IMG/VR virus record: IMGVR_UViG_3300046698_000138
Span: 1 to 44,505 of that record
DNA length: 44,505 nt
Direction: 5' to 3' (one strand)
Source of the DNA: a virus
A model generated the notes under the pieces. The model searched no databases. It was given only the letters and a program-made list of their open reading frames with translations, and was not told the DNA's origin. Below are positions 9,731 to 33,496 of this stretch, one piece after another. The position numbers and the translations under genes are program-made. The first letter of the stretch is position 1, and each line of letters begins with the position of its first letter.

Positions 9731-11790
9731 TGGCACAGCTTCTTGACCCAATTACCCAACGTGACTTTTCCGCCGGCCGCATTGCAAAATCCGCCGTTGC
9801 GACTGCTCTGATGCCCAATTATTCTTCCCACTCTTTAACAAGTGCTATAAATTCGGTTGCTAATTCAATTAATGTAGATTTTTCCGAAGTTATTGGGTCG
9901 GGAATAGTTCGTAAAAGTAAAAAACAGTTTGTCCAAATAGCCGCTAATACCGTTATTCCTGTCGGCTATCAACCTGCGACAACCAACTTTGTTCCTATCT
10001 ATGGGACTAACCAAATAGCGCAAATCTTTTCTTTATCCAATCCTTTTACTCTTACATCTTTTTGGTTAAAACTTTCTAGGGTTGGAATACCAGTAGGATT
10101 TGCTACGCTTAAAATTCAGGGAGTTAGCGGCGGAGTGCCGAATGGAGTTGATTTACTTCCTCCTATAACTTTTGATGTAGCACAATTATCCGCCGCACCT
10201 ACATTTAATGTAGTTCCTTTTTATACACAAGGAAATGCGTTTATTAATGCAAGTCAAGTAGCTTTAGTCTTGTCTTATCCGTTAGGTGACGTAGTAAACA
10301 ATTATATTTTGGTTACTTTTGACAATACCACTACTGTTGCGGGGACTTCTGTACAGGAATCTACCAATTCCGGTTCTACTTGGTCAGGAGCAGCGGGCAC
10401 TTTATATTTTACGATGAACGCAGTTAATAACAGTTCTCCTTATAGTTCAAAACCTCTTGGTAATTTCTCTTTTTTAGGAGCAAATGTTGGAAGGAATGTT
10501 GTAGCTTTTGCCCAACCTAATGTAAATGTTGGAGTAATTTATTGGTGGCAGTATACCACAGGTTGGGCTGGCTCTTGGCAAGTTTCCACATTAAACAATC
10601 TTTCCAACAATGCCTTTGTCCGGTTTGCCTATGTAAATGGTTCGGTTTTTGAAGCAAATGGAGCTCAAGTGATGCACGATTCGTCCGATTATGGCAATAC
10701 TTGGGGAGTGCTTAATTCTATTACCGCCAACAGTGTTATTCCTTCCTTATTACTTTTTTCCCAAGGCAGATTATTGGCTTCGGGATATTCGGTTTATCCT
10801 AATCGAATTTATTTTTCCAGTTTAGTTGACCCAACTGCTCCAGGAGGAGTATTTATAACTTGGAATACTGACCCAACAGCCGGAGATTTTTTGGATATTG
10901 ATTCCAGTTCCGGTCCGATTACGGGGTGGGCTAATTCGTCTACTTTGACCTTGGTATTTACGACTAATGGGATGTATCGGTTGAATTCCATCTCCAAAAC
11001 TGTCGATGCCGAAAATGTATATAATGTTGGAGCAGTCGGCCAGGAGACGATAACTTCTTGCCAGGGATTAGTTTATTTTTACTCTGGTAAAGGTATCTAT
11101 TCTACCGACAGCACTTTCCCCCAGCAAATTTCAAGAATTGGAGTCCAAGATTTTGTAGATGCAATCCAAGTCCCAACTGAAGTTTATGCTTGGGCGGATG
11201 AGTTTAATGTTTACTTTTCCATAGGAAGCGTAACCTTAAAGTATGGACCGGAAGATAAGAGAACTTATAATAATGTAGTATTAAAATTTTCCCCTCGTGA
11301 CCAAAATTGGCAGGTTTTTACTTATAACCAGCAGCTTGCTCAAACCAGTATCTTTGGTCCAGAACCGAATTTTGGTAATACAATAAATAATGAAATTTTG
11401 CCAGGACTTTTGACAATTCAGTATAATGGATATTTAGCTTGGGTAAATAATGAAACTATCTCCGATGACAGTGGAGCTATCCCCTATAGTCTAGAAACTC
11501 AAGAGCAGGAATTTGGCAATCGAGCTCATACTAAAGATATTAGCGATGAAATTGTGGTGTTTACAAAAAATGGCACTGATGGGATGTTCTCGGTTAAAGA
11601 AAATGATGGTGATTTTAATAGTTCAAATATGACGCTTAATAATCGGGTAAATGTTGGAACAGACATAGATTTTGAAGCTGAATTTTTTACTTTTCGGTGG
11701 CAGGGAGAAGCTTTGAACTCACGGCCGATTTTAGAAGGTTATCATTTGCCAAAAGTTACAGATTTAGGGATTATTAACAAGAATCAATAG
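9730..11790 (+). CDS. tail-tube B / P22 gp10-like tail protein
   Basis: This 686-aa, Ser/Asn/aromatic-rich beta protein begins MAQLLDPITQRDFSAG, an N-terminal pattern seen in podoviral tail proteins. Its C-terminal half has propeller-like phrases (RLLASGYSVYPNRIYFS, NGMYRLNSIS, GPEDKRTYNNVVLKFSP followed by WQVFTYN) that I associate with tail tubular protein B and P22 gp10-type proteins. A further beta module (about 110-240) is inserted. It would form the tail tube or needle base below the adaptor. Confidence 0.6.
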   Translation: MAQLLDPITQRDFSAGRIAKSAVATALMPNYSSHSLTSAINSVANSINVDFSEVIGSGIVRKSKKQFVQIAANTVIPVGYQPATTNFVPIYGTNQIAQIFSLSNPFTLTSFWLKLSRVGIPVGFATLKIQGVSGGVPNGVDLLPPITFDVAQLSAAPTFNVVPFYTQGNAFINASQVALVLSYPLGDVVNNYILVTFDNTTTVAGTSVQESTNSGSTWSGAAGTLYFTMNAVNNSSPYSSKPLGNFSFLGANVGRNVVAFAQPNVNVGVIYWWQYTTGWAGSWQVSTLNNLSNNAFVRFAYVNGSVFEANGAQVMHDSSDYGNTWGVLNSITANSVIPSLLLFSQGRLLASGYSVYPNRIYFSSLVDPTAPGGVFITWNTDPTAGDFLDIDSSSGPITGWANSSTLTLVFTTNGMYRLNSISKTVDAENVYNVGAVGQETITSCQGLVYFYSGKGIYSTDSTFPQQISRIGVQDFVDAIQVPTEVYAWADEFNVYFSIGSVTLKYGPEDKRTYNNVVLKFSPRDQNWQVFTYNQQLAQTSIFGPEPNFGNTINNEILPGLLTIQYNGYLAWVNNETISDDSGAIPYSLETQEQEFGNRAHTKDISDEIVVFTKNGTDGMFSVKENDGDFNSSNMTLNNRVNVGTDIDFEAEFFTFRWQGEALNSRPILEGYHLPKVTDLGIINKNQ

Positions 11791-31694: not shown

Positions 31695-31937
31695 TCAATA
31701 CCCAGGCAATCCCAATCCTTTTGGCCGGATGCCACTAAAAACTTTAGTTAGCTCTCTTTGGGGTCTTGTCCATTTATTATTTGGCCGTTTCTTTTGCGGA
31801 TATTTCCTTTTCTTATGTTTGCGGTCTAAAAATTGAACTTCATATCCACACATTTTACAAGTAGCGATAATTGTATCTTCAATATGCTTATAATCCCAAA
31901 AGTTTTCAAAACATCTATCGCAATTTCGCATCGCCAT
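31695..31937 (-). CDS. small zinc-ribbon protein
   Basis: The 80-aa product has CDRC (6-9) and CKMC (27-30), a zinc ribbon, followed by a Lys/Arg/Pro-rich tail. It overlaps the end of the upstream 50-aa gene by 23 bases in another frame. It lies upstream of the main early promoter, so it is transcribed from elsewhere. Confidence 0.6.
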   Translation of the reverse strand: MAMRNCDRCFENFWDYKHIEDTIIATCKMCGYEVQFLDRKHKKRKYPQKKRPNNKWTRPQRELTKVFSGIRPKGLGLPGY

Positions 31938-32067
31938 ACTTTTTATAAAAGTTAATAATAAAATCCAGTCTACCGGCCAATGTTTTAAATTTGCGAAAAC
32001 GCCGCAAATATTCTAATTGCTTCAAATCTATCCGTATTCTTCCTTTGAATCTTGTTCTATTGCTCAT
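31915..32067 (-). CDS. 50-aa basic helical protein
   Basis: A short ORF beginning MSNRTRFKGRIRIDLKQ; it is Arg/Lys-rich with several Phe and Tyr, helical and likely nucleic-acid binding. No clear Shine-Dalgarno. The overlap with the zinc-ribbon gene is the main support. Confidence 0.5.
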   Translation of the reverse strand: MSNRTRFKGRIRIDLKQLEYLRRFRKFKTLAGRLDFIINFYKKYGDAKLR

Positions 32068-32290
32068 AAGGGCACTAAAACCCCCTAGCCCAGCCGTTTC
32101 CTTTCGGAATCAATACAGAGGTTAGGGGAAGTTAAGGAGCTAGGCATAGATTACCGCTATGCTCGGCTAGTCTATCAGACGATAGAATCACTTTAAAATC
32201 GGCGTTTTGACTCGTCAGAGGTATCCGTATGGTCTTGCTTCCCCGCCTATTTAACGTCCGGCGGTCTTTGCAAGCAAAGGGGGTAGGACA
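32068..32290. other. non-coding stretch with hairpins
   Basis: No credible ORF is present. Visible stems are CCCCTA (32092-32097) with TAGGGG (32123-32128), GCATAG (32144-32149) with CTATGC (32157-32162), and TCTATC (32171-32176) with GATAGA (32181-32186). GGTCTTT near 32270 can also pair with AAAGACC near 32304, competing with the terminator stem at 32297-32351. It may be an untranslated leader or small RNA; nothing assigns it. Confidence 0.35.
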
Positions 32291-32296
32291 ATTTAA

Positions 32297-32351
32297 AACA
32301 AATAAAGACCACCGACGGGTTTTTAGTCCACGTTAGTAGTCTTTATTTGTT
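32297..32351 (-). terminator. 13-bp stem terminator
   Basis: AACAAATAAAGAC (32297-32309) is perfectly complementary to GTCTTTATTTGTT (32339-32351). The 29-base loop holds the end of the 49-aa gene, so the stem closes over its stop codon. On the minus strand the stem ends in T-rich sequence and probably stops transcription. Confidence 0.6.
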
Positions 32352-32472
32352 CTCTATCTCTATTTACTTTATCAGCGCACAAGCGGTGATAGGCGCACAC
32401 CCAATCAACAATTATTAAATCGGTTGGGTCTTTTAACTCTTGTCCGCATTTTGCACAGGTTGGGTATGACAT
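32323..32472 (-). CDS. 49-aa zinc-ribbon protein under leader control
   Basis: The gene begins MSYPTCAKCGQELKDP and has a second site VCAYHRLC; C6, C9, C26 and C32 or the His fit one zinc. Its ATG directly follows the T-run of the terminator-like hairpin in the leader 32473-32557, with no good Shine-Dalgarno. Expression would thus depend on read-through, as in attenuation. Confidence 0.55.
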   Translation of the reverse strand: MSYPTCAKCGQELKDPTDLIIVDWVCAYHRLCADKVNRDREQIKTTNVD

Positions 32473-32557
32473 AAAAAAATCCGCTTATTACGACTCGTAA
32501 GTAGGGCTTACGAAGCCGTAAAAAACGGATTTGTATGGAACGCCCTACATTCCCTTA
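32473..32557 (-). ncRNA. kissing-loop leader or small RNA
   Basis: On the minus strand, a hairpin GGAAT-GTAGGGC-GTTCC (32537-32553) has a 7-base loop exactly complementary to GCCCTAC (32501-32507). That second run is itself the 7-base loop of CGTAA-GCCCTAC-TTACG. The same arms can instead form two separate hairpins (TTACG/CGTAA at 32508-32521 and 32488-32500). All is enclosed by AAATCCG/CGGATTT (32526-32532 with 32477-32483) followed by seven T, a terminator. The wobble in the first stem works only on the minus strand. This looks like a switchable leader or a compact small RNA. Confidence 0.6.
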
Positions 32558-32563
32558 ATTGGA

Positions 32564-32591
32564 ATTATATCATAGCACATATTAAAGTCAA
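32564..32591 (-). promoter_or_regulatory. promoter of the kissing-loop RNA
   Basis: TTGACT (32586-32591) and TATAAT (32564-32569) on the minus strand are 16 bases apart; a second TTGACT lies just upstream. Start of the RNA would be near 32557. Confidence 0.7.
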
Positions 32592-32598
32592 GTCAAAC

Positions 32599-32648
32599 TG
32601 TGGATAAGTGGATAACTCTGTTGATAACTTTACATAACTTAATATTGA
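32599..32648. other. replication origin candidate with DnaA boxes
   Basis: TGTGGATAA (32599-32607) is the exact complement of the DnaA box TTATCCACA. AGTGGATAA (32607-32615) and TGTTGATAA (32619-32627) each differ at one position. An A/T-rich stretch (32628-32648) follows. It sits between divergent promoters. A host-DnaA-dependent start of replication is a fair inference. Confidence 0.6.
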
Positions 32649-32673
32649 CAACTTCCCTAAAATTTGCTACAAT
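32645..32673 (+). promoter_or_regulatory. strong sigma70-type promoter
   Basis: TTGACA (32645-32650), a 17-base spacer and TACAAT (32668-32673). The expected start falls at or next to ATG 32680, so the transcript would be leaderless. It faces away from the minus-strand promoter at 32564-32591. Confidence 0.8.
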
Positions 32674-32679
32674 TCCCCT

Positions 32680-32736
32680 ATGAGATTAAATATCCTACAA
32701 CTTGGGACAGTTGAGGAAACCATAACTATCATCTAG
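32680..32736 (+). CDS. 18-aa leaderless peptide
   Basis: The ORF encodes MRLNILQLGTVEETITII and its TAG stop touches the first base of a terminator stem. No Shine-Dalgarno is possible, since the predicted RNA begins at about its ATG. It could be a leader peptide of an attenuator, or an accidental ORF in a small RNA. Confidence 0.4.
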   Translation: MRLNILQLGTVEETITII

Positions 32737-32758
32737 CCGCTTTTTGAGCGGCCTTTTT
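32736..32758 (+). terminator. intrinsic terminator
   Basis: GCCGCT (32736-32741) pairs with AGCGGC (32747-32752) around TTTTG, followed by C and five T. It would stop transcription from the promoter at 32645-32673 after about 80 bases unless anti-terminated. Confidence 0.85.
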
Positions 32759-32769
32759 ATTATCTGCCG

Positions 32770-32930
32770 TCGCTTACAGCGATTTAGAGCATACATTATG
32801 TTGCTCACGCCCACGAAATGCAAGCTATTGGCCTATGCCCAGAAAAGTGCCTAAAGCATAGACGGTGTAAACTCTATCCAAGTCCCCCGACTGAGCTAGA
32901 GCTAAGTCCGTGATTATTGTAAGCGTGGGC
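32770..32930 (+). ncRNA. structured RNA candidate upstream of HNH gene
   Basis: Stems found by eye: TCGCT/AGCGA (32770-32782), GAGCA/TGCTC (32787-32807), a closing GCCCACG (32809-32815) with CGTGGGC (32924-32930), and within it CTATGC (32833-32838) with GCATAG (32856-32861). ACGG (32862-32865) pairs with CCGT (32908-32911), enclosing CTCTA (32872-32876) with TAGAG (32897-32901). This makes a three-way junction of about 122 bases. It is not a tRNA: no T-arm and too long. A group I intron remnant or unknown small RNA is possible. Confidence 0.45.
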
Positions 32931-32943
32931 AGAGGATAAAAAG

Positions 32944-33153
32944 ATGCTTAATCATCAGACCATAATTAAAGTAAACCGTCAATCTGCTAATCCTCTCGTT
33001 ATTCAAGCGGTATTTTACGATTTAGACGAGCAAACTGGCTTTATTTTAAACAAGAAACTGCATAAATTCGAGTGTATCTGTAAATTTTGTCTAGGATATG
33101 CGGATAGAATTGAAGCAGACCATTTTGTAAAAACAAATGCAGTATGGAGATAA
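32944..33153 (+). CDS. small protein ahead of HNH endonuclease
   Basis: The 69-aa product follows AGAGGA and has a Cys group CICKFC near residue 49. Its end overlaps the HNH gene by 17 bases in another frame. It may be an accessory zinc-binding protein or part of a once longer endonuclease. Not recognised. Confidence 0.55.
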   Translation: MLNHQTIIKVNRQSANPLVIQAVFYDLDEQTGFILNKKLHKFECICKFCLGYADRIEADHFVKTNAVWR

Positions 33154-33496
33154 AAACGGAAGGTGGAAAGGCGATGCGGTTGGATATATGGGTATCCACG
33201 CTTACGTTCGTAAGCGGTATATTAAACCACAGTTTTGTGAACGTTGTAAGATAAAACCTCCGTTAGATTTAGCAAATAAAACTGGAAAATATTTAAGAGA
33301 TTTATCAGATTGGGAATACCTTTGTAGAAAATGCCATATGAGAGGGGATGGGAGAATTACAAAGGCAAGACATATGGGTTATCTCCGTCGTTTACCTGAT
33401 AAAAAATGTAATTTTTGTGGAATAATTTTTCATCCTAAGGGTGGAGATACAACAGCTAAATATTGTTCTCGTCAATGCTTTTATGGACACACCTAA
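33137..33496 (+). CDS. HNH homing-type endonuclease
   Basis: The 119-aa protein has the HNH plan: GYMGIHAYVRKRY near the start, FCERCKIKPPLDLAN and YLRDLSDWEYLCRKCHMR, with the closing His in CH. The C-terminal CNFCGIIF and KYCSRQC form a zinc finger like those seen after phage HNH domains. Such enzymes are typically free-standing or intron-linked homing nucleases. The structured stretch at 32770-32930 lies just upstream. Confidence 0.8.
   Translation: MQYGDKNGRWKGDAVGYMGIHAYVRKRYIKPQFCERCKIKPPLDLANKTGKYLRDLSDWEYLCRKCHMRGDGRITKARHMGYLRRLPDKKCNFCGIIFHPKGGDTTAKYCSRQCFYGHT

Follow-up and report, generated by a model that had tools for sequence, protein, structure and literature searches.

What does a short leader RNA do when two of its loops can pair perfectly with each other, and its terminator stops immediately in front of a start codon? 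This question is raised by the minus strand of a 44,505-base virus record (IMGVR_UViG_3300046698_000138), the whole of which was analyzed here and is referred to as the window. A preliminary description had proposed seven-base kissing loops and two exclusive folds at this locus, as expected for a riboswitch, an attenuator, or a copy-control RNA next to an origin. Minus-strand genes run from ~32.5 kb down to 23 kb and encode HTH-like proteins, ParB, an exonuclease, and a DUF1064/resolvase-like protein, while plus-strand genes begin at 32.9 kb, with a divergent control region separating the two sets. Its minus strand contains a 49-aa zinc-ribbon ORF and, ahead of it, DnaA-box-like sites, a promoter, and the leader, and its plus strand contains another promoter with a terminator of its own behind it. 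Two relatives were found by ParB scans, namely the sibling L002 (ParB identity of 64%, terminase 89% identical to that of the window) and L003 (ParB identity of 50%). The elements of the control region are:

32599–32627, minus strand: three DnaA-box-like sites found by pattern search (TTATCAACA at 32619–32627, TTATCCACT at 32607–32615, and TTATCCACA at 32599–32607).
32564–32596, minus strand: sigma-70 type promoter TTGACT-16-TATAAT with an extended −10 (hexamers 32591–32564, agreeing with the consensus at 11 of 12 positions; TG ahead of the −10).
32537–32553, minus strand: 5′ hairpin H1, with stem GGAAT/GTTCC and loop GTAGGGC (32548–32542), from sequence and fold; the stem is identical in L002.
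32477–32532, minus strand: terminator-type hairpin H2, imperfect, 24 bp, from sequence and folds.
32473–32479, minus strand: U tract (seven T) of an intrinsic-terminator-like element, read from the sequence and kept in L002 and L003.
32323–32472, minus strand: 49-aa zinc-ribbon-like ORF, its ATG adjoining the U tract, read from the sequence, with a homolog at L002:4925–5062.
32645–32673, plus strand: divergent promoter TTGACA-17-TACAAT of the opposite early operon, from a promoter consensus scan.
32736–32752, plus strand: intrinsic terminator closing a divergent short leader, from a sequence scan, with equivalents in L002 and L003 in sequence and folds.

The leader spans 32553–32473 from H1 to the U tract, with the ATG at 32472 directly after it. 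The tip of H2 holds GCCCTAC (32507–32501), which is the exact seven-base complement of the H1 loop. Thus, three parts of the preliminary description could be read directly from the minus strand: the complementarity of the loops, the terminal hairpin with its seven T and immediate ATG, and the strong promoter ahead of the leader, which also has an alternative register, TTGACT-16-TATGAT. This promoter aligns with that of L002, and the TGCTAT of its −10 region is present in L003, too. With a stable 24-bp hairpin and an adjacent U7, the letters of the element predict an intrinsic terminator.

The minimum free energy (MFE) of the leader is −36.8 kcal/mol (z = −7.0), and none of 200 shuffles folded as well. 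In the MFE structure, H2 is one imperfect 24-bp hairpin with a 5-nt loop, CCCUA, closed by a pair between the first G and the last C of GCCCUAC. The loop of H1 is 3 nt long in that structure, and in the MFE structure of L002, both loops are exactly 7 nt. The kissing loops proposed earlier are, therefore, exact as complements but not as loops of the window's MFE structure, and the 7-nt loops are predicted to be one of two near registers there. The mini-hairpins proposed to form from TTACG and CGTAA are present in the letters, but they reach only −14.2 kcal/mol, compared to −36.8 kcal/mol, and the sibling lacks them. This alternative fold was rejected as 22 kcal/mol weaker and not kept in the sibling; in the window, the mini-hairpins may be transient at most. 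Consequently, the claim of two exclusive folds holds insofar as a two-state attenuator is the best reading, but the competitor of the terminator would be the helix between loop 1 and loop 2 and not the pair of mini-hairpins.

The leader homolog in the sibling (L002:4554–4676, 72% in blastn) has an MFE structure of exactly two hairpins, with the loops GAUAUAG and CUAUAUC being perfect complements (−31.4, z −5.9), and keeps the promoter, the H1 stem, the 10-bp lower H2 stem, the U tract, and the position of the ATG. Between the window and L002, six of the seven positions of the H1 loop differ, yet all seven bases pair with the tip (GATATAG/CTATATC), and the paired 7-mers rank among the most altered parts of an otherwise well-conserved leader. 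Since the H2 tip of L002 differs with a 2-nt indel, this covariation is one of structural equivalence and does not run column by column. In L003, a leader of unrelated letters occupies the same place in the genome plan, where the early operon begins next to a divergent promoter. Its promoter region contains TGCTATACT, its 5′ element reads CCUGCUAC, and GUAGCAGG lies at the tip of a stable terminator-type hairpin (fold −38.6, z −7.9). An 8-nt match, CCTGCTAC/GTAGCAGG, connects the 5′ element and the tip; H1 is not a clear hairpin there, and no gene is evident directly after the U tract. Relatives that keep the gene and lose the complementarity, which the preliminary description had named as counting against it, were looked for, and the pairing was instead found to be kept through sequence turnover.

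Further searches added little to these three leaders. No such leader was found in L004 and L005, which are more distant ParB relatives, and the zinc-ribbon protein used as search bait returned no relatives. Blastn of the leader among phages gave short weak matches only, scans with neighboring proteins returned the sibling alone, and DNA-pattern scans for stems with free loops had the sibling as their sole true match, with the rest being chance terminators or coding DNA.

To gauge chance, the 5′ segment alone was shuffled, and matches as long as the observed one were counted. Mononucleotide shuffles yielded 1.1% (0.011) for the window, 2.0% (0.020) for the sibling, and 0.04% (0.0004) for L003, and dinucleotide shuffles yielded 1.8% (0.018), 13% (0.13), and 0.1% (0.001), respectively. 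In addition, the tips of 26 strong U-tract hairpins in the collected loci were compared with the 45 nt upstream of each, and a match of at least 7 was found in 3 of 3 leaders versus 0 of the 23 other hairpins. An accidental pick of exactly these three from 26 has a chance of 1 in 2,600, although the window leader was known beforehand. The matches of single leaders are each modest, and it is their concurrence in three leaders that carries weight. The two relatives suggest that the arrangement is more than chance, and we regard the pairing between the tip and the 5′ element as genuine, with the caveat that the leaders number only three.

The best reading of these data, which we hold with moderate confidence, is that the 5′ leader of this early phage operon acts as a transcription attenuator. 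Among the functions proposed earlier, this one fits best, as the alternative pairing recurs in the relatives and dominates nascent prefixes in silico. The leader would yield either an ~85-nt RNA or read-through into the 49-aa zinc-ribbon gene. On leaving RNA polymerase, the tip would pair with the 5′ element, and the resulting long-range helix would enclose the 5′ arm of the terminator and occupy its nucleation site, thereby acting as an antiterminator. With the emergence of the 3′ arm, the terminator hairpin would start to compete and, at equilibrium, win. The balance of the two states would set how often transcription ends with the ~85-nt RNA and how often it proceeds into the zinc-ribbon gene; read-through in the sibling would enter an 80-aa ORF and then the zinc-ribbon gene. 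Candidates for biasing the choice are the speed of transcription, a protein, or a further copy of this RNA.

Folding of nascent chains showed that, once the tip is out but the 3′ arm is not, a nested long-range helix between loop 1 and loop 2 is predicted to form, with a pairing probability of 0.87–0.98 in the window, 0.36–0.85 in L002, and ~1 in L003. In the window and L002, ~6 more bases suffice for the terminator side to prevail; in L003, it does so only close to the end. The antiterminator helix of L002 is weak (−5.2 kcal/mol for 7 bp). The findpath barriers out of the loop 1:loop 2 state (~12.5–24 kcal/mol) are upper bounds because pseudoknotted intermediates, pausing, and the exit channel are ignored.

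Geometry bears on the same point. In all three leaders, the 5′ element lies 3–8 nt from the base of a 23–24 bp hairpin, with a single-stranded linker of 3–4 nt if the 3′ arm of H1 is counted as its own stem, and A-form geometry allows ~2.8 Å per pair and 6–7 Å per linker base. By this reasoning from the folds, one molecule probably cannot hold the loop pairing and the finished terminator at the same time. Since a 3–4 nt linker faces a rod of 23–24 bp, either the pairing would compete in cis with the lower stem of the terminator, or it would take place between molecules, and nascent-chain folding supports competition in cis. The same kind of competition is known from transcriptional riboswitches, in which displacement starts at the terminator loop (PMC10085676).

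Among known systems, pT181-type attenuators, in which an antisense RNA acts and contact begins by kissing, would share with this leader the 5′ sensing hairpin, antiterminator pairing against an intrinsic terminator before the gene, and recognition by kissing hairpins (PMC4878617). However, such attenuators have an antisense RNA from the opposite strand, and a consensus scan of 31900–33200, which can miss promoters, found no promoter on the plus strand directed at the leader from just beyond its 3′ end. Moreover, the complement of the sensing loop is here the terminator tip of the same RNA, whereas the 5′ part of the terminator stem is what the antiterminator of pT181 sequesters, and the gene is a small zinc ribbon, unlike that of pT181. 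A put-type antiterminator RNA as in HK022, which would have two stem-loops in both early leaders that act directly on RNA polymerase, may also be considered; here, the divergent leader folds differently. In the open-licence literature, we did not find a description of an arrangement in which a 5′ element pairs with the tip of the terminator and not with its stem, and keeps doing so while the letters turn over, which is weak evidence. If the models are right, the leader would be a compact RNA switch, amenable to testing, from uncultivated phages.

The loops could also meet in trans, which we consider unlikely. The tip loop of a terminated RNA, presented on a long rod, would kiss H1 in the next leader to be transcribed, or leaders would form dimers; the antiterminator would be blocked and termination promoted, making the leader its own antisense RNA. 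It would, thereby, gauge how many phage genomes or transcripts are present, as a means of feedback or superinfection immunity. In the predicted folds, the 3–4 nt linker could hardly span the finished hairpin, leaving the loops free only for another molecule, and strong change in the paired 7-mers is expected of an address. The P4 CI RNA, which comes from the leader it acts on, works likewise (PMC4825925). On the other hand, cis pairing before termination explains the same data, and the divergence of the loops possibly reflects neutral drift with compensation. A specific form of this reading, a self-antisense attenuator in which the terminator tip kisses H1 of the next nascent leader, termination begets termination, and the loops are a sibling-specific address, is a shade less likely still; in it, the long hairpin would hold the tip away from its own 5′ partner. 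P4 CI RNA immunity and the IsrK/SeqA leaders would share with this locus a short RNA from an untranslated leader, complementarity to that same leader, and premature termination of a phage operon (PMC4825925). By analogy, the CI RNA, made from the leader it silences (PMC4825925), is the nearest parallel for a trans mode, but it arises by processing of the leader and its pairing sites flank it on both sides, whereas the partners here are a 5′ element and a terminator tip. If the trans mode is true, it would represent an immunity or dosage system that has no need of an antisense gene, and would offer RNA circuits a simple part.

It is doubtful that the leader is a free-standing sRNA that acts via its loops on other phage or host RNAs, with the internal match as a by-product or stabilizer and the downstream gene expressed by leakage. 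The strong terminator-type hairpin, the stable fold, and the L003 leader, which has no evident gene right after its U tract, are in line with such an RNA, but no shared second site is apparent among the occurrences of the loop 7-mers in the three genomes, and the loops turn over between siblings while remaining mutually complementary.

The cluster of DnaA-box-like sites lies directly upstream of the leader promoter, and the sibling has two perfect DnaA boxes in the same place (G001, 8842 and 8853), on the opposite strand relative to the leader. It is possible that this cluster represents a host-DnaA-dependent origin or a DnaA-controlled promoter. Nonetheless, a primer or copy-control RNA linked to such an origin is improbable. 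While the clusters just upstream in both phages and the lack of a polymerase, helicase, or initiator among the scanned genes would suit it, the G002 genome has no TTATCCACA box, the consensus scan found no antisense promoter in the leader, GC skew has no clear turn there, and the terminator would stop a primer. ColE1 RNA I and RNA II also have 7-nt complementary hairpin loops, but these RNAs come from opposite strands, whereas both loops here are in one terminator-ended RNA; with one RNA and no opposite-strand promoter found, the locus differs from ColE1-type copy control.

That the element is an ordinary strong terminator with complementarity by chance is very improbable: the per-leader chance is only ~1% (13% for L002 in the dinucleotide shuffle), but three concordant cases with different letters stand against none among 23 other strong hairpins. 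A metabolite riboswitch, also among the functions proposed earlier, is scarcely credible, for although the leader precedes a gene, has a predicted two-state fold, and would share with ZTP and similar transcriptional riboswitches a pseudoknot displaced by the terminator 3′ strand from the terminator loop (PMC10085676), no Rfam family scored above its gathering score for the leader in the window, L002, or L003, no aptamer was recognized, unlike in ZTP, and there is no conserved pocket-like core because the loop parts are the variable ones.

Returning to the attenuator and the gene it would control, the ATG lies beyond the U tract, so the terminated RNA cannot encode the protein, and the start codon is present in the read-through RNA only. 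In window and sibling alike, the ATG comes right after the U tract, though the following gene differs. Over 36 codons aligned with the L002 homolog, 10 are identical, 14 synonymous, and 12 non-synonymous, and the differences by codon position (13/8/20) are as expected of coding DNA. A Prok-RING_1 match to the ORF scored below its cut-off. The ORF start has no Shine-Dalgarno sequence, as is the case for 34 of the 51 window starts checked; most genes of this phage lack one and have an A/T-rich run before the ATG. In the sibling, an extra 80-aa ORF (L002:4677–4919) lies between the leader and the zinc-ribbon gene, and TTTTATGCC, which opens both L002 ORFs, may mark the joint of an insertion.

Pairing between the leader and the divergent leader was set aside, as its 8–9 nt match in L003 is not kept in the window or the sibling. 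Specifically, ACCUGCUAU in the L003 divergent leader, on the opposite strand upstream of 3690, can pair over 9 nt (one G-U) with the tip GUAGCAGGU. Regarding the host, a ParB fragment in a Ca. Buchananbacteria MAG (L060:6001–6084; 79% identity over 28 aa) gives a weak hint, and the only one, of a Patescibacteria host; a terminase and ParB search of 380 sampled genomes of that assembly's phylum gave no match. The non-coding region at 32838–32925 (minus strand) contains tRNA-like letters (GCTCTAGCTCAGTCGG...) that are not in the sibling; ARAGORN found zero tRNAs in the window, while the sibling has two tRNA genes (10156–10227 and 10608–10680). On the 3′ side of the zinc-ribbon ORF, ~250 nt (32040–32290, minus strand) have no evident gene and fold no better than shuffles (z −0.9). 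Finally, a second long hairpin followed by TTTT, seen by eye at 32297–32351 (minus strand), overlaps the end of the ORF and includes a sub-threshold Rfam match to the SpF43 sRNA.
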